From Sphaerotilus sulfidivorans (GTDB lineage Bacteria; Pseudomonadota; Gammaproteobacteria; Burkholderiales; Burkholderiaceae_C), in assembly GCF_013426975.1 (NCBI RefSeq), contig NZ_JACCPY010000040.1, positions 1 to 32,053 on the forward strand: a stretch of 32,053 nt of DNA, in the 5' to 3' direction. Numbering within the stretch: the stretch's first letter is position 1; each line of letters starts with the position of its first letter. Shown piece by piece: positions 2,893 to 31,918 of the stretch. The notes under the pieces are model-generated. The model was not told the origin of the DNA, searched no databases, and saw nothing but the letters and a program-made list of their open reading frames with translations. The position numbers and the translations under genes were made by a program.

Positions 2893-5733
<2,841 letters not shown>

Positions 5734-12697: not shown

Positions 12698-14437
<1,740 letters not shown>

Positions 14438-14438
14438 G

Positions 14439-14744
14439 TCAGAGCGCTCCTTGCACCAGGCCGCGGAAGCCCCAGACCTGCCGGTCGCCGGCGAAATCGC
14501 ACAGCTCGACGGTGCGCTGCTGGCCCGGTTCGAAGCGCACCGCCAGTCCGCTGGCGATGTTCAGCCGCATGCCGCGCGCGGCCGCGCGGTCGAAGCGCAG
14601 GCCGGCGTTGGTCTCGGCGAAGTGGTAGTGCGAGCCGACCTGGATCGGCCGGTCGCTGGCGTTCTCGACCACCAGCGTCAGCGTGCGCCGGCCGGGGTTG
14701 AGCAGGTGCTCGCCTGCGTCGGTGAAGAGTTCTCCGGGAATCAT
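14439..14744 (-). CDS. ureB: Urease beta subunit
   Basis: The protein has 101 aa, starts MIPGELF and contains the conserved [15 protein letters not shown] and [17 protein letters not shown] segments of UreB. It packs against UreC and UreA in the (UreABC)3 trimer. Length is standard for separate-subunit bacterial ureases. It lies 46 bases downstream of the 59-aa peptide gene, not directly after ureA as in the usual order. Confidence 0.98.
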
Positions 14745-14790: not shown

Positions 14791-14970
14791 TCACTTGCGG
14801 CGGTTGAACCACAGCAGCGCGACGATGCCTGCGGCGAGCAGATAGCCGATCACGTCGGTCGAGTGCCAGTGCGCGCTGCCAGGCAGGCCGTGGCCCTCGT
14901 GGGCAAGCGCAGGCAGCGCGGCGCCAAGACTCAGCAGTGCGGCGGACAGCAGGGAGGCGGTCTTCTTCAT
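14791..14970 (-). CDS. Small His-containing membrane peptide between ureA and ureB
   Basis: This 59-aa protein begins with a signal peptide ([23 protein letters not shown]), probably cleaved after ALA at residue 23. A short mature part [16 protein letters not shown] with four histidines follows, then one membrane helix ([16 protein letters not shown]) and a basic end NRRK. The topology would place the histidines in the periplasm, anchored to the inner membrane. It lies 62 bases after ureA and 46 before ureB on the same strand, so it is in the urease transcript. The His-rich stretch next to a nickel enzyme suggests metal binding, but this is inference. No named family was recognised; it is much shorter than HupE/UreJ nickel permeases. 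Confidence 0.8.
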
Positions 14971-15032: not shown

Positions 15033-15335
<303 letters not shown>

Positions 15336-15360
15336 GGTGCAGGTGCGGACGTGACTTCGG

Positions 15361-15384
15361 CCGGTCTGACAGGCGGCAGACCGG
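15361..15384. promoter_or_regulatory. 24-base inverted repeat in the ureA/kinase divergent gap, putative operator
   Basis: CCGGTCTG (15361-15368), an 8-base spacer, then CAGACCGG (15377-15384) form a perfect dyad, 25 bases before the ureA start and 31 before the kinase ATG. The even 8-8-8 layout suits a dimeric DNA-binding regulator such as a LuxR-type response regulator; it could also form a leader hairpin on either strand. Confidence 0.5.
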
Positions 15385-15415
15385 GCTGGTGCGTTTCTTG
15401 AGTGCTTCCGCCCCC

Positions 15416-18400
15416 ATGAGCGCGGTCGGAAACACATCGGCAACAGGCCTGCAGGCAGAAATCGGGCCAGCCTGCGGGGCGGGCGGCGCGAGCGTGGTCG
15501 GCGAGCCGGTGCAGCGCGTCATCAAGATCCGCCGCGACTACAACGACTGGGTCGCCAGCGAGACGCTGGAGGACTATGCGCTGCGCTTCGCGCCGCGCAG
15601 CAGCCGGCGCTGGAGCATCGGCCGGGTGGCGGTGACCTCGCTGGGCGGCGCAGGTGCCTTCCTGGTGCTGGAGGCGGTGGGCGCGACGCTGCTGGTGCAG
15701 CACGGCTTCGTCAATGCCGCGCTGGCCATCCTGGCCACCGGGCTGATCATCTTCCTGGCGGGTCTGCCGATCAGCGTCTACGCCGCGCGCCATGGCGTCG
15801 ACATGGACCTGCTGACCCGCGGCGCGGGCTTCGGCTACATCGGCTCGACGCTGACCTCGCTGATCTACGCCAGCTTCACCTTCATCTTCTTCGCCCTGGA
15901 GGCGGCGGTGATGGCCTATGCGCTGGAGCTGGCCTTCGACATTCCGCCGGCCTGGGGCTATCTGATCTGTGCGGCGGTGGTGCTGCCGCTGGTCACGCAC
16001 GGGGTGACGGTGATCAGCCGGCTGCAGGTCTGGACCCAGCCGCTGTGGGCGGTGATGCTGGTGCTGCCCTATGCCTTCGTGCTGCACGAGAACCCGGGCG
16101 TGATCGATGCGCTGATGGCCTACGGCGGCGAGTCCGACCTGACCGGCTTCAGTCCGCAGGCCTTCGGCGCGGCGATGACGGTGGGCATCGCGCTGTTCAC
16201 GCAGATGGGCGAGCAGGCCGACTACCTGCGTTTCATGCCCGAGCGCACGCGCGAGAACCGGCTGCGCTGGTGGGCCGGCGTGGTCACCGGCGGCCCCGGC
16301 TGGGTGGTGTTCGGCGTGCTGAAGATGCTGGGCGGCGCGCTGCTGGCCTCGCTGGCGATCGGCCACATGGTGCCGATCGAGCGCGCGGTCGACCCGAACC
16401 AGATGTATCTGGCCGCCTACGAGTATGTCTTCCCGCACTACGGCTGGGCGGTCGCGGCCACCGCGGTCTTCGTGGTGATCTCGCAGCTCAAGATCAATGT
16501 CACCAACGCCTATGCCGGCTCGCTGGCCTGGTCGAACTTCTTCTCGCGCATCACGCACAGCCATCCGGGGCGGGTGGTCTGGGTGGTGTTCAACACCGGC
16601 ATCGCGCTGATGCTGATGGAGATGGAGGTCTTCCAGGCGCTCGGCGGCGTGCTGAGCCTGTACTCCAACATCGCCATCAGCTGGATGATGGCGGTGGTGG
16701 CCGATCTGGTCATCAACAAGCCGCTGGGCCTGAGCCCGAAGGGCATCGAGTTCCGCCGCGCGCATCTCTACGACATCAATCCGGTCGGCGTCGGTGCGAT
16801 GGGCGCGGCCTCGCTGGTGTCGGTGGCGGCCTATCTGGGCGTCTTCGGCGCGATGGCGCAGGCCTGGTCGGCGCCGATCGCGCTGGTGACGGCGCTGCTC
16901 GTCTCTCCGCTGCTGGCCTGGGCCACGCGCGGGCGCTTCTACCTGGCGCCCCGGGTGGACGACGGCGGCGACACCTACCGCCGCTATGCCGCGCCGCAGC
17001 GCTGCACCGTCTGCGAGCGCGAGTACGAGGGCGAGGACATGACGCACTGCCCCGCCTACCGCGGCGCGATCTGCTCGCTGTGCTGCACGCTCGACGTGCG
17101 CTGCCATGACCTGTGCAAGCTGCCGCAGGCGCATCTGTCGGTGCAGTGGGCCGGGGCGCTGCGCCGGCTGCTGCCGCGCCCGGTCTGGCCCTATCTGGAG
17201 CGTGGACTCGGCCACTATCTGCTGATGATGGCGGTGCTGCTGCCGCTGCTGGCGCTGCTGGCCGGCATGCGCCGCGAGCTGGTGCTGCCGACGCTGGCGC
17301 TGGTGTCGGGCGTGATCGCCTGGTGGCTGGTGCTGGCGCACAAGAGCCGCCAGGTGGCGCAGGAGGAGGCCAACCGCCAGACCCAGGCGCTGCACGAGCA
17401 GACGCTGGCGCTGCGCCGCGAGATCGAGTCGCACCGCCAGACCGATCTGGCGCTGCAGCAGGCCAAGCAAGTGGCCGAGTCGGCCAACCTCGCCAAGAGC
17501 CGCTACATCACCACGATCAGCCATGAGCTGCGCACGCCGCTGAACTCCATCCTCGGCTATGCCCAGCTGCTCGAAGAGGACGAGACGATGCCGCCGCAGC
17601 GCCGCCAGGCCGTCAGCGTCATCCGCCGCGGCGGCGACCACCTGCTGTCGCTGATCGAGGGCACGCTGGACCTGGCGCGCATCGAGAGCGGCCGGCTGCG
17701 CCTGGATGTTCGCCCGATGCGCTTCGCCGAGACGCTGGGCGAGATCACCCGGCTGCTGGAGCTGCAGGCCGCCGCCAAGGGCCTGGTCTTCCGCAGCGAG
17801 ATCGCCGGCGCGCCGGCCTGCGTGCGCGCCGACGACAAGCGGCTGCGCCAGATCCTGATCAACATCGTCGGCAACGCGATCAAGTTCACCCGCGAGGGCG
17901 AGGTGGTGCTGCGGCTGCAGTACGCGCGCGAGATCGCCCGCTTCGAGGTCGTCGACACCGGCCCGGGCATGACGGCCGAGGAGATGGCGCGCATCTTCGA
18001 GCCCTTCGAGCGTGGCTCGGCGGCCGCTGGCGGCAGCGTCAGCGGCGGCGCCGGTCTCGGGCTGACGATCAGCCGCATGCTCGCCGACCTGATGGGCGGC
18101 GAGCTGACGGTCGACAGCCAGCCCGGCCGCGGCACCACCTTCCGGCTGCGGCTGTTCCTGCCGGAGGTGTGCGAGGGTGCGACCGGCCGACCGGCACCGG
18201 TGCGCCGGCGCATCGGGGTGGCCGGCCGGCCGCGCTGCATCTGGGTGGTCGACAACGAGGAGGTCGACCGCGGCCTGATCGTCAGCCTGCTGCAGCCGCT
18301 GGGCTTCACGATCCGCCAGGCCGCCAGCGGCGAGGAATGCCTGCGCGCGCTGCAGGAGGCGGGCGGCGCCCTGCCCGACGCGATCTTCATGGACCTGGCC

Positions 18401-18937
18401 ATGCCCGGCATCGACGGCTGGGAGACGCTGCGCCGCATCCGCGCCCAGGGCCTGCTGCCGGCGGGCACGCCAGCGGCGATCGTCTCGGCCAATGCCTTCG
18501 ACAAGGGCCTGGACAACGATGTGGGCATCGAGCCGGGCGACTTCCTGGTCAAGCCGGTGCGGGTCAGCGAGCTGCTCGACTGGCTGGGCCGGCGCCTGGC
18601 GCTGCAGTGGATCGAGGCCGAGGCGCCTGCCGCGGAACCGGTCCTGCACGCGCCGGGCGCGTCGGCCCGGCCGCAGGCGCCGGAGGTGCCGCTGCGCATC
18701 GACCCGGAGCGGCTGCGTGCGCTGCGCGATGCGATCGGCATCGGGCATGTGCGCGGCGTGATGCGCGAGCTCGACCGCATCGAGGCCGCGCAGCCCGAAT
18801 GCGCCGGGCTGGTCGGGCGGCTGCGCGCGCTGGCGCGCCAGTTCCAGCTCGACGCGATGAACGGACTGCTGCGCAGGACGCTGGATGAGAACGACCCACG
18901 CGATGGCCATGACGACACCGATGAACGCTCCCGCTGA
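15416..18937 (+). CDS. NCS1-transporter / hybrid sensor histidine kinase / receiver fusion
   Basis: This predicted 1173-aa inner-membrane protein has four parts. Residues about 25-505 form a multi-helix module like the nucleobase:cation symporter-1 (purine-cytosine permease) family, with [13 protein letters not shown] and [19 protein letters not shown]. Residues about 530-567 form a Cys-rich segment with eight cysteines ([19 protein letters not shown]), possibly metal-binding. Two further membrane helices (about 600-640) lead by a coiled-coil linker to a histidine kinase with phospho-His 703 in [11 protein letters not shown]-box [10 protein letters not shown]1 VVDTGPGM and G2 GAGLGLTI. The C-terminal receiver has Asp 993 in [11 protein letters not shown]. 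Transporter-like sensor kinases (CbrA, CrbS) use an SSS module; this one uses NCS1. A GTG at 15389 is an alternative start. It overlaps the LuxR regulator and is divergent from ureA; sensing urea or purine products is inference. Confidence 0.93.
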
Positions 18938-19880
18938 CCGCCGCGCCGATGTGGTGCTGATCGTCGACGACGTGCCCGACAACCTCGCGGTGCTGCACGA
19001 CACGCTCGACGAGTCGGGCTACACCGTGCTGGTGGCCACCGACGGCCCCAGCGCGCTCGAGCGTGCGCTGCGCGCCCAGCCCGACGTGATCCTGCTCGAC
19101 GCGATGATGCCGGGCATGGACGGCTTCGAGGTCGCGCGCCGGCTCAAGGCCGAGGCGCGCACCGCCGCGATTCCGATCATCTTCATGACCGGCCTGACCG
19201 AGACCGAGCATGTGGTGGCCGCCTTCGCCGCCGGCGGCACCGACTATGTGACCAAGCCGATCCGCGCCCGCGAGGTGATCGCGCGCATCACCGCGCACTC
19301 GCTGGCCGCGCGCGAGCAGCAGCAGGCACGCAACGCGCTCGATGCCTTCGGCCATGCCACGCTGATGGTGCGCATGCATGACGGGCGCATCGTCTGGCAG
19401 ACCGCGCTGGCGCGGCAGCTGCTGGAGCAGCATTTCGCCTCCGACGGCCGGCGCGCGCCGGTGGCGGTGCTGGCCTGGCTGCAGCGCGAGACGGCACGGC
19501 TGGTCGGGCTGGAGGAGGGGCCGGTGCCGGGCTCGCCCTCGCTGGTGGTCGATGCGGCGGCCAGCGGGCGGCGGCTGCGCTTCACGCTGCACGAGGCTTC
19601 CGGCGACGGCCAGTGGCTGCTGGTGCTGCGCGAGGCCGATGATGCGGCCGCGCTGGAGGCGCTGTCGCTGGCCTTCGGCCTGACCCCGCGCGAGGCCGAG
19701 GTGCTCTACTGGGTCGCCCGTGGCAAGACCAACCGCGACATCGGCGACATCCTGGGCAGCAGCCCGGCCACCGTCAAGAAGCACCTCGAGCATGTCTACG
19801 AGAAGCTCGGCGTGGAGACCCGAACCGCCGCCGCATCGCTGGCGCTGGCCCGCGCGCCGATGCGGCCGCATGGGACGTGA
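18885..19880 (+). CDS. LuxR-type response regulator
   Basis: This 331-aa regulator is presumably the partner of the preceding kinase. The receiver has the acidic pair in LIVDDVPDNLA, phospho-acceptor Asp 72 in LLDAMMPGMDG, the Thr of FMTGLTE and the Lys of VTKPIR. A middle region (about residues 145-260) resembles a PAS-like or linker domain without clear motifs. The C-terminal helix-turn-helix (about 266-320, LTPREAEVLYWVARGKTN to TVKKHLEHVYEKLGV) is of the NarL/LuxR type. The start is uncertain: ATGs at 18885, 18903, 18909 and 18921 all lie inside the end of the kinase gene, an overlap of 17-53 bases that implies coupling. Likely targets are the divergent urease genes or urt; this is untested. 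Confidence 0.93.
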   Translation: MRTTHAMAMTTPMNAPADRRADVVLIVDDVPDNLAVLHDTLDESGYTVLVATDGPSALERALRAQPDVILLDAMMPGMDGFEVARRLKAEARTAAIPIIFMTGLTETEHVVAAFAAGGTDYVTKPIRAREVIARITAHSLAAREQQQARNALDAFGHATLMVRMHDGRIVWQTALARQLLEQHFASDGRRAPVAVLAWLQRETARLVGLEEGPVPGSPSLVVDAAASGRRLRFTLHEASGDGQWLLVLREADDAAALEALSLAFGLTPREAEVLYWVARGKTNRDIGDILGSSPATVKKHLEHVYEKLGVETRTAAASLALARAPMRPHGT

Positions 19881-19951: not shown

Positions 19952-20773
19952 ATGTCCTCTTCCATTCTCGAGCGCAACCATGTCAACTGCATCGGTGAGC
20001 AGGGACCGGTGCTGCTGTATGGCCACGGCTTCGGCTGCCACCAGGGCATGTGGTCGGGCGTCACGCCGGGCTTCGCGCACAGCCATCGGCAGGTGCTGAT
20101 GGACTATGTCGGCAGCGGGCGCTCCGACCGCTCCGCCTTCATGCCGAGCCGCTATGCCCGGCTGGAAGGCTATGCCCGCGATGTGCTGGAGGTCTGCGAT
20201 GCGCTCGGCCTGGAGCGCGGCGTCACCTTTGTCGGCCATTCGGTCGGCTGCAGCATCGGCATGCTGGCGCAGATCGCCCGGCCGGCGCTGTTCGAGCGGC
20301 TGGTGCTGGTCGGCCCCTCGCCCTGTTTCCTGAACCATCCGCCGCACTATCACGGCGGCTTCGAGCGCGAGGATCTCGAGGGCCTGCTGGCGCTGATGGA
20401 CCAGAACTACATCGGCTGGGCCGATCATCTGGCCCCGGTGGTTGCCGGTGGCAGCGAGGCCACCAGCGACCGGCTGCACGACAGCTTCTGCTCGACCGAT
20501 CCGCAGACCGCACGCGTCTTCGCCCGGGCGACCTTCTTCGCCGACAACCGCGCCGATCTGCCCCGGGTGAGCTGCCCGAGCCTGATCCTGCAGCATGCGC
20601 ACGACGCGCTGGTGCCGCCCGAGGTCGGTGACTACCTGCACCGCCAGCTTGCCGGCAGCACGCTGCGGGTGCTGGAGGTGGCCGGCCATTGCGCGCACCT
20701 GAGCCATCCCGAGCTGGTGATTGCGGCGATGCGCGACTTCCTGGGCCCGCCCGGCACCGATATCGGCACCTGA
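19952..20773 (+). CDS. RsbQ-like alpha/beta hydrolase
   Basis: This 273-aa cytoplasmic protein has the RsbQ/KAI2-type pattern: oxyanion region LLYGHGFGCHQGMW, MDYVGSGRSD, nucleophile Ser 97 in FVGHSVGCS, Asp 218 in HAHDALVPP and His 246 in VAGHCAHLSHP. RsbQ of Bacillus has its triad at nearly the same positions (96, 219, 247). In Bacillus RsbQ is needed to activate the PAS-phosphatase RsbP in the energy-stress pathway. Here the next gene, 2 bases downstream, begins with a PAS domain of the same type, so the two probably form a sensing pair. The ligand or substrate is unknown. Confidence 0.9.
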   Translation: MSSSILERNHVNCIGEQGPVLLYGHGFGCHQGMWSGVTPGFAHSHRQVLMDYVGSGRSDRSAFMPSRYARLEGYARDVLEVCDALGLERGVTFVGHSVGCSIGMLAQIARPALFERLVLVGPSPCFLNHPPHYHGGFEREDLEGLLALMDQNYIGWADHLAPVVAGGSEATSDRLHDSFCSTDPQTARVFARATFFADNRADLPRVSCPSLILQHAHDALVPPEVGDYLHRQLAGSTLRVLEVAGHCAHLSHPELVIAAMRDFLGPPGTDIGT

Positions 20774-20775
20774 TC

Positions 20776-23679
20776 ATGCCGACTGGCCTGGATGCGCTGC
20801 CCTGCGCGGTGCTGGTCACCGACGGCCAGGGCCTGCTGCAGGAGCTCAATGCCGAGCTGCTGGCCTGGGTCGGCGGCGAGCCGGCCGACTGGATCGGCCG
20901 GCGCATCGAGCTGCTGCTGGTGCCGGCCAGCCGGATCTTCCTGCAGACCCATGTCTGGCCGCTGCTGCTGCATCAGCAGCGGGTGCACGAGCTGCAGCTG
21001 ATGCTGCGCGAGGCCGCCGGCACCCGCCTGCCGGTGCTGCTCAGTGCCCGGTGCACGCAGGACGCGCCTGATCCTGCGGCCCGGCGCTTCACCTGGGTGC
21101 TGTTCCCGGCCCGGGAGCGCCAGCGCTTCGAGGCCGAGCTGGTCCAGGCCCGCCAGCGGCTGCAGCATCTGATCGAGAGCACGGATGCCGGCACCTGGGA
21201 GTGGAATGTGCAGACCGGCGAGCTGCGCCTGAACGAGCGCGGCTGGCGCATTCTCGGCCTGGCGCCGGACGAGGCCCGGCCGCTGCGGCTCGATCACCGC
21301 TTCCGCCTCGAGATCGCCCATCCGGCCGAGCGATCGCGCACGCTGCGCCGGCTGATGCGCCATTTCGCCGGCCGCAGCGAGACTCATGTCGACGAGGTGC
21401 GGCTGCGCCGCCTCGACGGCAGCTGGGTCTGGGTGCAGGAGCGCGGGCGGGTGATCTCGCGCACGCCCGACGGCCAGCCGGAGTGGATGTTCGGCACCCA
21501 CATCGACATCGACCCGATCCAGCGCCAGCAGGAAGCGCTGCGCCGCAGCAAGGCACTGCTGGACCGCACCAACGAGCTGGCGGGTGTCGGCGGCTGGGAA
21601 GTCGACCTGCATGATCCGCGGCAGCCGCTGCTCTACTGGTCCGAGCAGACCTGCCGGATTCACGGCGTGCCACCGGGCTATCAGCCCGCGCTCGACGAGG
21701 CCATCGGCTTCTTCCTGCCCGAGCATCGGCACCGCATCGAGGCAGCGGTGCAGCGCGGCATCACCGAAGGCCTCGGCTGGGATCTGGAGCTGCAGCTGCG
21801 ACGCCGCGACGGTGCGGTGCTGTGGGTGCGTGCGCTCGGCCGGGTGGAGTTCGAGCAGGGTCGGGTGGTGCGACTGATCGGCGCGGTGCAGGACATCAGC
21901 GAACGGGTGCGCGAGCGTGCCGAGCTGCACCAGCTCGCCGCTCAGCTCGCCGAGCAGCATGAGCTGCTGCGGGTGACGCTGCAGTCGATCGGCGATGCGG
22001 TCATCACCACCGATGTCGCGGGCCGGGTGACCTGGCTCAATCCGGTGGCCGAGCGGCTGAGTGGCTGGCTGCAGACCGAGGCCGCCGGCCGGCCGCTGAT
22101 GCAGGTCTTCCAGGCGGTCGACGAGCGCGATCGCCGGCCGCTGCCGGATCCGGTTGTGCCGAGCCTGAATGGTGGCATGGGCGCTGCGGCCGAGACTGGG
22201 GCGCCGCTGCTGATCTCGCGCGATGGCCGCGAGGCCGGCGTCGAGATCTCGGCCGCGGCGATCCGCGGTGCCGACGGCCGTGTGCATGGCGCGGTGCTGG
22301 TCTTCCGCGACGTGACCGAGCAGCGTCGCATGGCCGGCGAGATGAGCTACCGGGCTTCTCACGATGCGCTGACCGGGCTGATCAACCGGATGGAGTTCGA
22401 GGCGCGGCTGGAGCGCACCCGGTTGCGCGCCCAGAGCGAGGGCAGCCACCATGCGCTGCTGTTCATCGATCTGGACCAGTTCAAGCTGGTCAACGATGCC
22501 TGCGGGCATGCGGCCGGCGATCTGCTGCTGCAGCAGGTCTCGCGGCTGATGCGCCAGACGGTGCGCAGCCGCGACACGCTGGCCCGGCTGGGCGGCGACG
22601 AGTTCGCGGTGATTCTCGAGCATTGCGACGAGGCCCAGGCGCAGCGGGTCGCGCATCTGATCTGCGAGCGTTTCGATGCCTTCCGCTTCATCCATGACGA
22701 GCGGCGCTTCCGGGTGGGGGCGAGCGTCGGCCTGGTGCCGCTGGACAGGCGCTGGCGCAGCATCACCGCGCTGATGCAGGCGGCCGATGTGTCCTGCTAC
22801 GCGGCCAAGGAGGCCGGGCGCAACCGGGTGCATGTCTGGTTCGACAGCGACCAGGCGGTGCGCCAGCGCCACGGCGAGATGCGCTGGGCCTCCCGGCTGG
22901 AGCAGGCGCTGGACGAGGACCGCTTCGTGCTGCATGCGCAGCGCATCCTGCCGTGCCGGCCGGAGCCGGCGCAGGCGCGGCCGGCGCTGCATGCCGAGGT
23001 GCTGGTGCGCCTGCGCGAGCCCGATGGCCAGCTGGTGGCGCCTGGCGCCTTCTTGCCCGCGGCCGAGCGCTTCCACCTGGCCTCGCGCATCGACCGGCGG
23101 GTGCTGCAGCTCAGCCTGCAGGCGCTGGGCCGGCAGCCGGCCGCGGCGCCGCCCTGGCTGCTGTCGGTGAACCTGTCGGGCCAGTCGATCGGCGACCGCC
23201 ATTTCTGCCAGGATGTGCTGGACATGCTCGAGCGGGCGGGGCCGTCGATCTGCCGTCAGCTCTGCCTGGAGATCACCGAGACCGCCGCGATCGGCAGCAT
23301 GAGCGAGGCGGCCCGCTTCACCAGCCAGGTGCGCGAGCACGGCGTGCAGGTGGCGCTGGATGACTTCGGCGCCGGTGCCTCCTCCTTCGGCTACCTGAAG
23401 CATCTGACGGTCGACTGGCTCAAGATCGACGGCCAGTTCGTGCGCGACCTGCTGGACGATCCGCTCGACGAAGCGGCCGTGCGTTCCTTCGTCGATGTGG
23501 CGCGGGTCATGGGCCTGGCGACGGTGGCCGAATTCGTCGATCACCCGCAGGTGCTGCAGCGGCTGCAGGCCATGGGTGTGAGCCGGGCGCAGGGTTTCCT
23601 GCTCCATCGGCCCGAGCCGCTCGAGAATCTGCTGGATTCAGTGCCTGAAATGAAGGAATCAGGCCGGCACGAAACTTGA
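20776..23679 (+). CDS. PAS(x4)-GGDEF-EAL cyclic-di-GMP protein, RsbQ partner
   Basis: This 967-aa predicted cytoplasmic protein has no membrane segments. PAS 1 (about residues 5-120) has PASRIFLQTHVWPLL and LPVLLSARC, the signature of PAS domains that accompany RsbQ-like hydrolases. PAS 2 (about 125-260) and PAS 3 (about 265-385) are of the PAS_3 type with WVWVQERGR and LWVRALGRV. PAS 4 (about 395-525) starts SIGDAVITTDVAGRVTWLN. The GGDEF domain has an intact GGDEF at 606-610 and an upstream RSRD that fits the inhibitory I-site, so diguanylate cyclase activity is likely. The EAL domain has EVL (E741 kept), NLSGQS, EITET, DDFGAG, LKIDG and AEFVD, so phosphodiesterase activity is possible. The start MPTGLDALP at 20776 follows the hydrolase stop by 2 bases. 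Confidence 0.93.
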   Translation: MPTGLDALPCAVLVTDGQGLLQELNAELLAWVGGEPADWIGRRIELLLVPASRIFLQTHVWPLLLHQQRVHELQLMLREAAGTRLPVLLSARCTQDAPDPAARRFTWVLFPARERQRFEAELVQARQRLQHLIESTDAGTWEWNVQTGELRLNERGWRILGLAPDEARPLRLDHRFRLEIAHPAERSRTLRRLMRHFAGRSETHVDEVRLRRLDGSWVWVQERGRVISRTPDGQPEWMFGTHIDIDPIQRQQEALRRSKALLDRTNELAGVGGWEVDLHDPRQPLLYWSEQTCRIHGVPPGYQPALDEAIGFFLPEHRHRIEAAVQRGITEGLGWDLELQLRRRDGAVLWVRALGRVEFEQGRVVRLIGAVQDISERVRERAELHQLAAQLAEQHELLRVTLQSIGDAVITTDVAGRVTWLNPVAERLSGWLQTEAAGRPLMQVFQAVDERDRRPLPDPVVPSLNGGMGAAAETGAPLLISRDGREAGVEISAAAIRGADGRVHGAVLVFRDVTEQRRMAGEMSYRASHDALTGLINRMEFEARLERTRLRAQSEGSHHALLFIDLDQFKLVNDACGHAAGDLLLQQVSRLMRQTVRSRDTLARLGGDEFAVILEHCDEAQAQRVAHLICERFDAFRFIHDERRFRVGASVGLVPLDRRWRSITALMQAADVSCYAAKEAGRNRVHVWFDSDQAVRQRHGEMRWASRLEQALDEDRFVLHAQRILPCRPEPAQARPALHAEVLVRLREPDGQLVAPGAFLPAAERFHLASRIDRRVLQLSLQALGRQPAAAPPWLLSVNLSGQSIGDRHFCQDVLDMLERAGPSICRQLCLEITETAAIGSMSEAARFTSQVREHGVQVALDDFGAGASSFGYLKHLTVDWLKIDGQFVRDLLDDPLDEAAVRSFVDVARVMGLATVAEFVDHPQVLQRLQAMGVSRAQGFLLHRPEPLENLLDSVPEMKESGRHET

Positions 23680-25919: not shown

Positions 25920-26205
25920 CACGTGTGCGCTCCGTGCTCTTGGCTTGACGTTGCAGAAGAAGGGGAAAGGGGAGAGTGAATGGGCGAGGGAAAGGCAAGA
26001 CTGCTGCCATGCAGTCTGCACCAGAGCCAGGGGGACTGCATGAAAGTTGATCGGCTGCCGCGCGCTGTCGCGCACATCCAGGGGGGAGAAACACTACGCC
26101 ATCCGGCGTATTTCACGAATCGGCCGCGACTTCGACACTGACTCCATTCCAACGCTGCCAACGCAACCCGTCAGCTTCTCAGCCTCTTCCCGGAGTCAAC
26201 CTGTC
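25920..26205. promoter_or_regulatory. Divergent galU/urtA intergenic region
   Basis: The 286 bases hold the promoters of both genes, but no hexamer pair stood out by eye, nor a sigma-54/NtrC-like TGGC-N-TTGC site. A short dyad TACGCC-ATCC-GGCGTA (26095-26110) lies about 95 bases before urtA and could be a binding site. The urtA ribosome site is CCCGGAG, about 10 bases before the ATG. Confidence 0.4.
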
Positions 26206-27483
26206 ATGCAAGCTTCCCGTCGCTCCTTTGCCGCCAAGCTCAGCGCCGTCGCCCTGGGCGTCGCCGTGACCACGCTGCCGATGCTGGCCCAGGCCGCCGA
26301 CACCATCAAGGTCGGCATCCTGCACAGCCTGTCGGGCACGATGGCCATCTCGGAGACCGTCCTGAAGGACGTCGCGCTGATGACGATCGACGAGATCAAC
26401 GCCAAGGGCGGCGTGCTGGGCAAGAAGCTCGAGCCGGTCGTGGTCGATCCGGCCTCCAACTGGCCGCTGTTCGCCGAAAAGGCCAAGCAGCTGATCGACC
26501 AGGACAAGGTTGCCGTGACCTTCGGCTGCTGGACCTCGGTGTCGCGCAAGTCGGTGCTGCCGGTGTTCGAAGAGAAGAACTCGCTGCTGTTCTACCCGGT
26601 GCAGTACGAAGGTGAAGAGCTGTCGAAGAACGTGTTCTACACCGGTGCCGCGCCGAACCAGCAGGCCATCCCCGCGGTGGAATACCTGATGAGCAAGGAC
26701 GGCGGCTCGGCCAAGCGCTTCGTGCTGCTGGGCACCGACTACGTCTACCCGCGCACGACCAACAAGATCCTGCGCGCCTTCCTGAAGTCCAAGGGCATCC
26801 CCGAGTCGGACATCATGGAGGAGTACACCCCCTTCGGTCACTCCGACTACCAGTCGATCATCGCCAAGATCAAGAAGTTCTCCAGCGAAGGCAAGAAGAC
26901 CGCGGTGGTCTCGACCATCAACGGCGACTCCAACGTGCCCTTCTACAAGGAACTGGGCAACCAGGGCCTGAAGGCGACCGACGTGCCGGTGGTGGCCTTC
27001 TCGGTGGGTGAGGAAGAGCTGCGCGGCGTGGACACCAAGCCGCTGGTGGGTCACCTGGCCGCATGGAACTACTTCATGTCGATCAAGAACCCGACCAACG
27101 CGGCGTTCATCAAGCAGTGGAGCGACTACGCCAAGGCCAAGAACATCGCCGGCCACAAGGACAAGCCGCTGACCAACGACCCGATGGAAGCCACCTACAT
27201 CGGCATCAAGATGTGGGCGCAGGCGGTCGAGAAGGCCAAGTCCACCGACACCGACAAGGTCATCGCCGCGATGGCCGGCCAGACCGTGAAGGCCCCGGGC
27301 GGCTTCACGTCCACGATGGACAAGGAAAACCACCACCTGCACAAGCCGGTCTTCATCGGCGAGATCAAGGCGGATGGCCAGTTCAACGTGGTCTGGAAGA
27401 CCCCGGGCCCGGTGGTCGCCGATCCGTGGAGCGACTACATCGCCGAGAACAAGGGCAAGAAGAACGTGCCTGAGAAGAAGTGA
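26206..27483 (+). CDS. urtA: Urea ABC transporter substrate-binding protein
   Basis: This 425-aa periplasmic binding protein has a Sec-type signal peptide (MQASRRSFAAKL to AQA, about 31 residues). The mature start is IKVGILHSLSGTMAISETV. UrtA-specific segments are VVDPASNWPLFAEKAKQL, FGCWTSVSRKSVLPVFEE, LLFYPVQYEGEE, YVYPRTTNKILRAFL and DPMEATYIGIKMWAQAVE. It delivers urea to UrtBC. Codon choice is the most expression-optimised of the window (many AAG, GAA and CTG), which suits an abundant binding protein. The start was chosen at the signal peptide; the upstream frame to 26047 is not conserved-looking. Confidence 0.98.
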   Translation: MQASRRSFAAKLSAVALGVAVTTLPMLAQAADTIKVGILHSLSGTMAISETVLKDVALMTIDEINAKGGVLGKKLEPVVVDPASNWPLFAEKAKQLIDQDKVAVTFGCWTSVSRKSVLPVFEEKNSLLFYPVQYEGEELSKNVFYTGAAPNQQAIPAVEYLMSKDGGSAKRFVLLGTDYVYPRTTNKILRAFLKSKGIPESDIMEEYTPFGHSDYQSIIAKIKKFSSEGKKTAVVSTINGDSNVPFYKELGNQGLKATDVPVVAFSVGEEELRGVDTKPLVGHLAAWNYFMSIKNPTNAAFIKQWSDYAKAKNIAGHKDKPLTNDPMEATYIGIKMWAQAVEKAKSTDTDKVIAAMAGQTVKAPGGFTSTMDKENHHLHKPVFIGEIKADGQFNVVWKTPGPVVADPWSDYIAENKGKKNVPEKK

Positions 27484-27629: not shown

Positions 27630-29186
27630 GTGACCCACCTGCGAACACTCCTCCTTCTGGTCATGGCCCTCCTGGCGCCTGTCGCCCACGCGCTGACGCC
27701 TGACCAGGCCGCCGCCATCGCCATCGGCGACACCGATTCCCGCATCGCGGCGCTGAACAAGTCCGCCGCCGACGCCGACCCCGAGCTGGCCCCCTTCGTG
27801 CGCGCCCTGCTGGACGGCGAAGTCAAGACCGCCGACGGCAAGGTCTACGTCGTCCAGGGCGACAAGACGGCGCCCGACACCGCCGAAGACGTCATCAACA
27901 ACAACCGCATGCGCGGCGCGCTCGAAGCCGCGCTGGGCGCGCTCAAGCTGGTCTCGCCCGACGCCAAGGTGCGCGCCGAGGCGGTCGAGGAGTTGCGCAA
28001 GCAGTCGCTCGACGAGGCGCAGCTGCCGCTGATCGAGAAGGCCTGGGCCGCCGAGAGCGATGCGGGCCTGAAGTCGCGGTTGGCGCTGATGCGCGCCACG
28101 ATCCTGGTCTCGTCGTCCGATGTCGCCAAGCGCCTGGCTGCGGCGCAGGCCTTGTCCGCCAGCAGCGAGCCGGCCGTGAAGAGCCTGCTGCAGGAGCGCC
28201 TGGCCCCGGGCGTCGAGACGGACCCGGCGGTGCGCGGCGCGCTGATGACGGCGCTGGACGCGGTCGAGGGTCGTCTGGCCTGGGGCGAGCGGCTGGGCGT
28301 GCTGTTCACCGGCGCCAGCCTGGGCTCGATCCTGCTGCTGGTGGCGCTGGGCCTGGCGATCACCTATGGCCTGATGGGCGTGATCAACATGGCGCACGGC
28401 GAGCTGATGATGATCGGCGCCTACGCCACCTTCGTGGTGCAGAACCTGTTCCGGCAGTACCTGCCCGGGGCCTTCGACTGGTACATCGTGCTGGCGATTC
28501 CGGTGTCCTTCCTGGTGTCGGCGCTGGTGGGTGCGGCACTCGAGCGCAGCGTGATCCGCTGGCTCTACGGCCGCCCGCTTGAGACCTTGCTGGCCACCTG
28601 GGGCATCTCGCTGGTGCTGATGCAGGGCGTGCGCAGCCTGTTCGGCGCGCAGAACGTCGCGGTCGAGAACCCGGCGTGGCTGTCGGGCGGCGTGCAGGTG
28701 ATGTCGAACCTGATCCTGCCCTACAACCGGCTGGCCATCATCGCCTTCGCCTTCCTGGTGCTGGCGGGCGTGACGCTGATGATCAACAGGACGCGCCTGG
28801 GCCTGTTCGTGCGCGGTGTCACCCAGAACCGCCGCATGGCCGCCTGCGTCGGCATCCCGACCGCACGCATCGACACCTATGCCTTCAGCCTCGGCGCGGG
28901 CATCGCCGGTCTGGCGGGCTGCGCGCTCAGCCAGGTCGGCAACGTCGGGCCCGATCTGGGCCAGGGCTACATCGTCGACGCCTTCATGGTGGTGGTCACC
29001 GGTGGCGTGGGCCAGCTTGCCGGCACGGTCTACGCCGCGCTGGGCCTGGGTGTGCTCAACAAGTTCCTCGAGGGCTTCGCCGGCGCGGTGCTGGCCAAGA
29101 TCATGGTGCTGGTGTGCATCGTGATCTTCATCCAGAAACGTCCGCAAGGCCTGTTCGCCATGAAGGGCCGGAGTGCCGAAGCATGA
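27630..29186 (+). CDS. urtB: Urea ABC transporter permease UrtB
   Basis: This 518-aa inner-membrane permease starts with GTG at 27630. It has a signal-like N-terminus (LLLLVMALLAPVAHA), then the extra periplasmic helical region typical of UrtB (about residues 22-215, with NNNRMRGALEAALGALKL). The LivH-like permease core follows, with ITYGLMGVINMAHGELMMIGAYA, TWGISLVLMQGVRSLFGAQN and RMAACVGIPTARIDTYAF. It pairs with UrtC to form the channel. The stop overlaps the urtC start (ATGA, 29183-29186). It is 146 bases after urtA, a gap filled largely by the REP-like pair. Confidence 0.97.
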   Translation: MTHLRTLLLLVMALLAPVAHALTPDQAAAIAIGDTDSRIAALNKSAADADPELAPFVRALLDGEVKTADGKVYVVQGDKTAPDTAEDVINNNRMRGALEAALGALKLVSPDAKVRAEAVEELRKQSLDEAQLPLIEKAWAAESDAGLKSRLALMRATILVSSSDVAKRLAAAQALSASSEPAVKSLLQERLAPGVETDPAVRGALMTALDAVEGRLAWGERLGVLFTGASLGSILLLVALGLAITYGLMGVINMAHGELMMIGAYATFVVQNLFRQYLPGAFDWYIVLAIPVSFLVSALVGAALERSVIRWLYGRPLETLLATWGISLVLMQGVRSLFGAQNVAVENPAWLSGGVQVMSNLILPYNRLAIIAFAFLVLAGVTLMINRTRLGLFVRGVTQNRRMAACVGIPTARIDTYAFSLGAGIAGLAGCALSQVGNVGPDLGQGYIVDAFMVVVTGGVGQLAGTVYAALGLGVLNKFLEGFAGAVLAKIMVLVCIVIFIQKRPQGLFAMKGRSAEA

Positions 29187-30315
29187 GTGCCATCCCGATG
29201 ACTTCTTCCCTGGACCTGACGCCGCGCCGCGGCCTGCTGCTCGGCCCGAAGGGCTGGGCGGCGGTGATGGCCGCCGCCATCACCGTGACGGTGCTGGCGC
29301 CGCTGCTCAACCTGGTGGTGCCTGAAGGCCACGCCTTCCATCTCAGCGACTACGCGGTGGCACTGATCGGAAAGATCATGTGCTACGCCATCTGCGCGCT
29401 GGCGATGGACCTGATCTGGGGCTACACCGGCATCCTGAGCCTGGGCCACGGCCTGTTCTTCGCGCTGGGCGGCTACGGCATGGGCATGTACCTGATGCGC
29501 CAGATCGGCCGCGACGGCAACTACAAGAGCGATCTGCCTGACTTCATGGTCTTCCTCGACTGGAAGGAGCTGCCCTGGGCCTGGACCTTCTCGGACAGCT
29601 TCCTGTTCCAGATGGCGATGGTGGTGCTGGTGCCGGGGCTGCTGGCGCTGGTCTTCGGCTTCTTCGCCTTCCGCAGCCGCATCAAGGGCGTGTACTTCTC
29701 GATCATCACGCAGGCGATGACCTTCGCGGCGATGCTGCTGTTCTTCCGCAACGAGACCGGCTTCGGCGGCAACAACGGCTTCACCGACTTCAAGCGCATC
29801 CTGGGCGTGCCGATCGCGCTGCCCGAGACCCGGATGATGCTGTTCGTGCTGACCGGCCTGACGCTGATCGGCTTCTACCTGATGGCCCGCTGGATCGTGC
29901 ACAGCAAGTTCGGCCGGGTGCTGCAGGCGATCCGCGACGCCGAGAGCCGGGTGATGTTCACCGGCTACGACCCGCTGGCCTACAAGCTGGCGATCTGGAC
30001 GCTGTCGGCGGTGATGTGCGCGGTGGCCGGGGCGCTCTATGTGCCGCAGGTCGGCATCATCAATCCCGGCGAGATGAGCGCCGCGGCCTCGATCGAGATC
30101 GCGATCTGGGCGGCGGTGGGCGGGCGCGCCACGCTGATCGGCCCGATCCTGGGCGCCTTCTTCGTCAACGGCGCCAAGAGCTGGTTCACCCAGGTCTTCC
30201 CGGAGTTCTGGCTGTATTTCCTCGGCGCGCTGTTCATCGCGGTGACGCTGTTCCTGCCGCAGGGCATCGTCGGCCTGTTCGACAAGTTCTCGTCCAAGAA
30301 GAAGGAGACCCGCGC

Positions 30316-30319
<4 letters not shown>
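29183..30319 (+). CDS. urtC: Urea ABC transporter permease UrtC
   Basis: This 378-aa LivM-type permease has a short N-terminal arm (MSAIPMTSSLDLTPRRG) followed by about ten membrane segments. Family motifs are DLIWGYTGILSLGHGLFFALG, FRSRIKGVYFSIITQAMT, ETGFGGNNGFTDFK and LQAIRDAESRVMFTGYDP. The start was fixed by the ATGA overlap with urtB; the longer in-frame upstream reading is a shadow of urtB. Its stop overlaps the urtD start in the same ATGA way, so urtB-C-D are coupled. Confidence 0.97.
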
Positions 30320-31194
<875 letters not shown>

Positions 31195-31225
31195 CGCCCA
31201 GATTCATCAGGAAAGAAGCGACGCG

Positions 31226-31918
31226 ATGCTGAAGGTTTCCGGTCTGCACCAGTATTACGGCGGCTCGCACATCCTGCGCGGGCTGGATTTCGAGGCCCGG
31301 CTCGGCGAGGTGACGGTCGTGCTGGGCCGCAACGGCGTGGGCAAGACCACGCTGCTGAAGAGCCTGATGGGCGTGGTGCCGATCCGCAGCGGCGCCGTCA
31401 CGCTGGACGGCGTGGACATCTCGAAGGACACCTCCTACGACCGGGTGCGCAAGGGAATGGGCTATGTGCCGCAGGGCCGCGAGATCTTCGGCCGGCTCAC
31501 GGTCGAGGAGAACCTGCGCATGGGCCTGGCCAGCCGGCCGGCGCGCACGCCGATTCCCGCCGAGCTGTTCGAGCTGTTTCCGATCCTGAAGCAGTTCATG
31601 CACCGCCGCGGCGGCGACCTCTCGGGCGGGCAGCAGCAGCAGCTCGCCATCGCCCGTGCGCTGGCGCCGGGGCCGAAGCTGCTGATCCTCGACGAGCCGA
31701 CCGAGGGCATCCAGCCCAGCATCATCAAGGACATCGGCCGCGTCATCCGCATGCTGGCCGACCGCGGCGACATGGCCATCGTGCTGGTCGAGCAGTTCTA
31801 CGACTTCGCCGCGGAGCTGGCGGATCAGTACCTCGTGATGGAGCGGGGGGAGATCATTCAGCGGGGGCGGGGGGGTGACATGGAGGCCGAGGGGGTTCGG
31901 GGGCTGATGTCGATTTGA
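31226..31918 (+). CDS. urtE: Urea ABC transporter ATP-binding protein UrtE
   Basis: This 230-aa LivF-like ATPase has Walker A GRNGVGKTTLLKSLMG, signature DLSGGQQQQLAIARAL, Walker B LLILDEPTEGIQPS and the H/Q-loop partner VLVEQFYDFA. It starts 31 bases after urtD with an AGGAAAGAAG ribosome site. The C-terminus (GDMEAEGVRGLMSI) is the normal family end, so the gene is intact. Its last 26 or so codons switch to GGG for glycine and give long G runs, unlike the GGC used earlier. An IS3-like element begins 9 bases after the stop. Confidence 0.97.
   Translation: MLKVSGLHQYYGGSHILRGLDFEARLGEVTVVLGRNGVGKTTLLKSLMGVVPIRSGAVTLDGVDISKDTSYDRVRKGMGYVPQGREIFGRLTVEENLRMGLASRPARTPIPAELFELFPILKQFMHRRGGDLSGGQQQQLAIARALAPGPKLLILDEPTEGIQPSIIKDIGRVIRMLADRGDMAIVLVEQFYDFAAELADQYLVMERGEIIQRGRGGDMEAEGVRGLMSI

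Follow-up and report, generated by a model that had tools for sequence, protein, structure and literature searches.

The closest described systems to the one reported here are the SLC5-STAC kinases CbrA and CrbS, in which, as set out in the accessible part of PMC7096432, a whole LeuT-fold module, a linker domain and a histidine kinase work with a response regulator; in CbrA the SLC5 module transports histidine and is joined to the rest of the protein by STAC. A protein of this general build is encoded by Sphaerotilus sulfidivorans on a stretch of 32,053 nucleotides (GCF_013426975.1, contig NZ_JACCPY010000040.1, positions 1-32,053 of the forward strand), here called the window. It is a hybrid sensor kinase of 1173 amino acids (aa) whose gene (15416..18937, + strand) is read from a predicted ATG start at 15416, inside an open frame spanning 15389-18937, and is divergent from the urease gene ureA. 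It differs from CbrA and CrbS in having an NCS1-like and not an SLC5 module, an eight-cysteine cassette that fills the place where STAC sits in SLC5 kinases, no match to PAS, a receiver of its own, a LuxR-type regulator and a linkage to urea and amide genes. It belongs to a real and widespread family of transporter-type sensor kinases tied to the use of urea and small amides, which is a variant of the transporter-fused kinases.

Anatomy of the fused kinase

The sensor module (~aa 32-512; 15509..16951, +) was recognised by its LeuT fold. An AlphaFold model of aa 30-690, built from the window protein and 76 relatives (mean pLDDT 78.8, pTM 0.79), has a broken first helix and a LeuT-like bundle followed by the cysteine segment and two helices, the second of them very long. 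When this model was compared with the Protein Data Bank (PDB) by Foldseek, chains of Mhp1 (hydantoin) and CodB (cytosine) took ranks 1-5 of 479 (E 4.8e-8 to 5.4e-7), with other LeuT-fold carriers ranking below. The fold alignment to these nearest NCS1 structures has ~18% identity, and the window protein further differs from them in bearing a kinase. Sequence searches gave no such kinship: Pfam returned no family for aa 1-685 up to E 10, the NCS1 model PF02133 included, NCBIfam gave a single chance-level match for aa 1-571 (E 0.41), and a profile search of the PDB found no chain at E 1. Proof by hhalign was also tried and set aside, with probabilities of only 30% (CodB) and 34% (Mhp1). Because of this the NCS1 assignment rests on the fold and on a standalone relative, a kinase-free protein from Klebsiella that is over the PF02133 cut-off (E 1.4e-9; three other relatives scanned alongside gave no match), and on the model the module is NCS1-related, whilst not being an NCS1 member by the Pfam rule. 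The purine/cytosine-permease-like character claimed in a preliminary description of the locus therefore stands for the fold and finds no echo in Pfam, NCBIfam or PDB sequence searches. For SSF (PF00474), the SLC5 model, there was no match in the window protein or on contig C80, with seven on other contigs of the same genome.

The eight cysteines of the cassette (aa 530-567; 17003..17116, +) lie at aa 530, 533, 545, 553, 556, 557, 563 and 567. In an alignment of 168 rows, made up of 148 fused kinases (one cut by a contig end) and 20 standalone proteins with near-identical loci repeated among them, all eight are kept in 148/148 fused rows. The cassette looks private to the family, as nine members gave no match in Pfam and a cassette profile run on 200 genomes returned 30 matches, 28 of them long frames of the family and two at E ~0.005. 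Its identification as a known zinc domain was rejected, the PDB profile matches being mostly short and of the C2H2-finger kind and of use as a lead only; so too is the chain 2n94, which covers most of the cassette at E 0.69 and which we take to be a zf-HIT chain. Pfam recorded no STAC, PAS or other further domain in the kinase protein, the library not having been checked for a STAC model.

Beyond the cassette come two helices (aa 588-618 and 624-689; 17177..17482, +), the second of which is in the model a probable coiled coil leading into the kinase. Pfam then finds HisKA (aa 693-759, E 5.6e-19), with the H-box histidine at aa 703, and HATPase_c (aa 806-915, E 3.9e-28), together at 17492..18160 (+), and a receiver (Response_reg, aa 942-1055, E 7.5e-15; 18239..18580, +) with its aspartate at aa 993, so that the protein has all the parts of a hybrid histidine kinase. 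The kinase-receiver half (aa 688-1053) aligns with the NahK/ErcS kinases (NF041832) at 167.6 bits, which is below the curated cut-off of 400, and the N-terminal half is unlike theirs. The end of the kinase gene is overlapped by a gene for a LuxR-type response regulator (18885..19880, +, predicted start) with a receiver (E 6.2e-28) and GerE (E 3e-17); ~120 aa between the two are without a Pfam match. The order of parts proposed earlier, from membrane module through eight cysteines and two helices to histidine kinase and receiver, is borne out by the open reading frame (ORF), Pfam and AlphaFold, as are the overlapping regulator and the divergence of the pair from ureA, over an 80-base-pair gap (15336..15415) that is likely to carry regulated promoters. 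A sigma-54-like scan was no better than shuffled sequences, and no clear shared motif was seen.

Gene neighbourhoods of the family

A profile of eight relatives was run against 398 genomes drawn evenly across Pseudomonadota, the source genome included; the module was matched at E 0.001 in 63 of them, and a strong copy in a long frame was found in 51 genomes besides that of S. sulfidivorans, a recurrence that places the fused frame far beyond chance. Stretches of at most 20 kilobases (kb) were taken around the 56 strong places in these 51 genomes and around one weaker match (L192, 180 bits), other weak matches and split pieces being left out. Urease, urt or formamidase genes are near 54 of the 56 strong copies, and the remaining two (L148 and L191) are both cut by a contig end; urease genes as such are near 12/56. 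A LuxR-type regulator lies downstream in the same direction in 54/56, the exceptions being L186 and L189. A control set was made up of a single further hybrid kinase from each of 20 of the same genomes, the one that ranked next outside the family (for G204 a near-equal row away from a contig end; three of the control stretches are under 20 kb, at 13.2-18 kb), and urease genes were near 1/20 (L220) and urt, formamidase and amidase genes near 0/20. The link to urea genes, named beforehand in the preliminary description as one of the points on which its proposal would stand or fall, therefore holds.

Among the best 80 of 583 relatives, which are 67-95% identical, ure or urt genes are near 63 (ure in 33, ure and urt in 24, urt in six); six of the 17 with neither have no flank on one side (L049, L054, L058, L071, L110 and L126), and the other eleven are weighed below. 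No relative was found in the viral contigs searched. In a plasmid collection the module, fused or standalone, is present in 535 records, with at least 80% of it in 524 of 72,556.

By frame length, no kinase-free copy occurs among the strong places of the broad sample. Within the family to which a Klebsiella-like genome belongs, 3/246 genomes have close kinase-free copies, and others are among the best rows of the plasmid search. Seventeen such loci were read (H108, H109, H112 and H117 being left out), several of them near-identical and so amounting to fewer independent cases, and 12 of the 17 have urease, urea carboxylase, formamidase or amidase genes nearby. Urease is beside the kinase-free gene in Klebsiella (L044, and L207 with a 99% identical protein) and on Acinetobacter plasmids (L195, L204, L205 and L206), formamidase in Moraxella and Tsukamurella (L196, L198) and amidase in Arthrobacter U41 (L199). 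In Methylovirgula (L200) the permease stands together with formamidase, amidase and a fused kinase, and in L208 (3441-11554) and L209 it adjoins allophanate hydrolase and urea carboxylase genes, with a GntR regulator gene in between in L208. Four actinobacterial loci (L045, L197, L201 and L202) are without a urea or amide link. On such sequence context the kinase-free relatives are candidate urea or amide permeases, with transport as a prediction. Two that adjoin urease, at 11941-13548 of L044 and 9956-11563 of L195, are annotated 'cytosine permease' or 'allantoin permease' and are candidate urea permeases. Distant kinase-free NCS1-like genes (26-28% identical) were also seen in L192, L211 and L212, ~3 kb from a gene for a UrtA-like binding protein (28-31%).

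Mechanism, ligand and competing explanations

We think it fairly probable that the window protein is a ligand-sensing hybrid kinase, for urea in this branch and for formamide or acetamide in its paralogues, which controls genes of uptake and hydrolysis. The NCS1-like module of the ure/urt-linked branch would bind urea at the transporter's central site, with residues peculiar to sensors around transmembrane helices (TM) 1 and 8 probably making it a binder that does not work as a pump; its shape, with ligand bound or without, would be relayed through the last helices of the module, the cassette, which probably holds two metals, and the two further helices to HisKA. From His703, phosphorylated by the kinase, the phosphate would pass to the receiver of the same protein, to the overlapping LuxR regulator or to both, and the regulator would in turn switch on urease and the urea importer; paralogues of the same build beside formamidase or amidase genes would read formamide or acetamide. 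Most of the homologues found in the broad sample have formamidase or amidase genes as neighbours, a point missed in the preliminary description, and the family therefore probably reads small amides in addition to urea. In favour of this are the linkage of the loci, genomes with two copies, the swap of kinase frames in L186 and L189, the permease loci, the fold, the residue patterns, the cassette and the lack of purine markers. The position of the genes points to control of ure and urt by the kinase, and urea would be the simplest reading of the ligand for the window's branch.

Sensors and permeases are set apart at three positions of the alignment: F82 and E86 are found in all 147 sensor rows that have a residue there and A367 in 148/148, against Y82 in 20/20 standalone rows, F86 in 19 (Q86 in one) and S367 in 20/20, whilst in three NCS1-like rows of the outgroup these residues are A82, F86 and S367. 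E266 and Q267 are present in 168/168 rows and distinguish the family from these distant outgroup proteins, which are without them. The model puts F82/E86 at the TM1 break, E266/Q267 at TM6 and A367 at TM8. Carriers of the LeuT fold keep their ion and substrate at these places, and sensor-specific residues there suggest that the sensors bind but may not pump. The cassette is kept to varying extents in the permeases; that of Methylovirgula keeps all eight cysteines, those of Klebsiella, Acinetobacter, Moraxella and L208/L209 keep four (530, 533, 553 and 556), two from Streptomyces have five and those of Arthrobacter and Tsukamurella one or two, and in the tails of the three outgroup rows there are none, none and one. 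The joint loss of 545, 557, 563 and 567 suggests two four-cysteine metal sites, and as the cassette is strict only together with the kinase it is probably a coupling element. In the free tree all standalone rows fall into a single clade (98% SH-aLRT), nested among the sensors; that a sensor turned into a transporter was set aside as a settled direction, since a tree that keeps all sensors together was not rejected and scored slightly higher (p-AU 0.76).

It could be that the module has kept the transport of urea or an amide, with its cycling or flux setting the activity of the kinase, for which there is a precedent in the transport of histidine by the SLC5 module of CbrA (PMC7096432, accessible part). 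Furthermore E162, Q263, E266, Q267 and N364 are common to sensors and permeases, with a single V162 among 148 sensors. However, every aligned sensor differs from every permease at F82, E86 and A367. These positions are at the TM1 break and in TM8, where changes would affect ion coupling in a LeuT fold, and an ATP-binding cassette (ABC) importer already adjoins the kinase in most loci, and a transporting sensor of this kind would seem rather unlikely.

A second explanation is that the module of this branch reads another small amide, or urea and amides alike. The loci are of two linkage types, one with urease and/or a urt set like the window's and one with a second urt set, usually together with formamidase and often with an aliphatic amidase. 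Of 73 fused rows in the tree, 41 have formamidase/amidase-type neighbours only, 23 urea-type only and nine neither, and few columns divide the two types. Nevertheless the ure-linked modules form separate clades, and five changes of linkage label are needed on a tree of 89 modules (labelled rows, standalone and outgroup included). All four ure-linked clades are shifted at column 326, from E to D, and at column 425, from G to M, C or S; on the model these columns would lie at extracellular loop 4 (EL4) and TM10, and at 326 the formamidase-linked clades mostly have E. As 2/70 mock groupings made from formamidase-linked clades performed equally well, this shift is suggestive only. Two strong copies are present in five sampled genomes, with one ure-linked and one formamidase-linked in G216, G281, G302 and G431 and both formamidase-linked in G150. 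We regard a different or broader specificity in the window's branch as quite unlikely.

A third explanation is that the NCS1-like module is not the sensor, and that nitrogen status, redox or metal is read further inside the protein, perhaps by way of the cassette. According to the accessible part of PMC7096432, CbrA still signals when its SLC5 module is removed and histidine leaves its kinase activity unaltered; the strict conservation of the eight cysteines with the kinase would also fit. Set against this, urea and amide neighbours stay when the kinase is missing, as in the 12 of 17 kinase-free loci, or when its frame differs. L186 and L189 have this module and cassette on shorter frames of 885 and 894 aa; that of L189 has HisKA and HATPase_c and no receiver by Pfam, both genes adjoin one for a separate receiver-HisKA-HATPase protein, joined in L189 by an OmpR-type regulator, and formamidase is near both, so that the substrate genes travel with the module and not with the type of kinase. 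An internal sensor is thus, in our view, distinctly improbable. A purine ligand (allantoin, uric acid or another), which the preliminary description had offered alongside urea, can be given hardly any credence. It is true that Mhp1 and CodB, the solved structures nearest in fold, are carriers of hydantoin and cytosine, and that the annotation of some standalone relatives reads 'allantoin permease' or 'cytosine permease'. Even so, none of 14 Escherichia coli marker proteins for purines, allantoin and cytosine was found in the 56, 80 and 17 neighbourhoods or in the window at a cut of 30% identity and 60% cover, by which distant versions could be missed (allA was matched in 3/20 control loci), and in the source genome PF02133 is not matched and allantoinase gives three weaker matches and none above the cut-off.

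Several observations weigh against a urea- or amide-sensing module, our preferred reading. The dispensability of the CbrA transporter module for signalling, cited above, counts here as well; the window protein itself is missed by the NCS1 Pfam model, and a shared operator motif was looked for and none was found. In Acinetobacter baumannii (L042), where a permease is divergent from the fused kinase, a stretch of 25.6 kb around the kinase has no urea or amide gene. Eleven of the 80 closer loci, each flanked by at least ~5 kb on either side, have no ure or urt neighbour (L064, L068, L078, L096, L097, L103, L109, L113, L114, L116 and L123); ureC is found elsewhere in 10 of these 11 genomes (for L096 only as a 184-aa piece, for L116 as two pieces) and urtA in nine (that of L109 is 45% identical), and the genome of L123 has neither.

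Other genes of the window and the wider family

Across the gap from the kinase gene, ureA (urease gamma; 15033..15335, -), the position of which agrees with that of urease gamma in Mitsuaria (L038), is followed by the gene for the beta subunit (14439..14744, -; tblastn 78% to Mitsuaria urease beta) and ureC (urease alpha; 12698..14437, -; NCBIfam TIGR01792, 947.9 bits against a cut-off of 680). Between the first two is a frame for a hydrophobic, histidine-containing peptide of 59 aa (14791-14970, -), and as a HupE/UreJ gene holds the same spot in Mitsuaria (L038, 10909-11568) this may be a shortened version. On the other side urtA (26047..27483, +, frame limits with the start approximate; tblastn 41% to Methylobacterium UrtA) and urtB, urtC, urtD and urtE in that order (27630..31918, +, outer frame limits; tblastn 41-51% and ORFs) take up ~26.0-31.9 kb. 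The importer is thus where it had been described, with the correction that urtA starts ~6 kb past the regulator and behind two genes. These two, within 19952-23679, encode an alpha/beta hydrolase, which we take to resemble RsbQ, and then a PAS-GGDEF-EAL protein, and from that resemblance they may be a separate sensing pair with a cyclic di-GMP output. A 946-aa frame lies at 2893-5733 (+), its start presumably that of a DNA polymerase I.

A plasmid set for a urea ABC importer and amidase, termed 'UTS', has been reported from Klebsiella pneumoniae CG307, with UrtABC and AmiF named; in the main text of that source 'two-component' and 'histidine kinase' occur zero times (PMC13060141). In the K. 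pneumoniae plasmid record L043 (5897-15369) urtABCDE and formamidase genes are divergent from a fused kinase of the sensor family, and we infer that the two plasmid sets are one and the same. Klebsiella records with the module, fused or standalone, number 342, those examined being L043, L044 and, from K. quasipneumoniae, L046. No description of this kinase family was found among the titles and abstract openings listed from the open literature, in which subscription journals are mostly absent, and the accessible part of PMC3924187 has no NCS1-kinase fusion; growth on metformin needs an NCS1 homologue according to PMC9699525 (accessible part), which is a lead only.

In the records examined the module-bearing kinase is labelled 'ATP-binding protein' or similar, and its kinase-free relatives are now labelled cytosine permease, allantoin permease or hypothetical. 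Urea ranks among the major sources of nitrogen in soil, water and the body; we know of no described bacterial kinase dedicated to sensing it; a urea or amide sensor of this type is probably so far undescribed, and to speak of a distinct sensor class, as was done at the outset, is reasonable given the NCS1-like module and the apparently private cassette. It is conceivable, if somewhat short of probable, that one membrane family serves as both transporter and sensor for the smallest amides (urea, formamide and acetamide), the role being set by F82/E86/A367 as opposed to Y/F or Q/S and by an intact two-metal cassette, which is partly lost in most kinase-free relatives. The sensor would then have arisen from, or turned back into, the permease stock of the uptake system that it accompanies, and hence the two would share a binding site. 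The strict contrast in residues between sensors and permeases gives a direct way into the question of how a transporter fold is made into a receptor.

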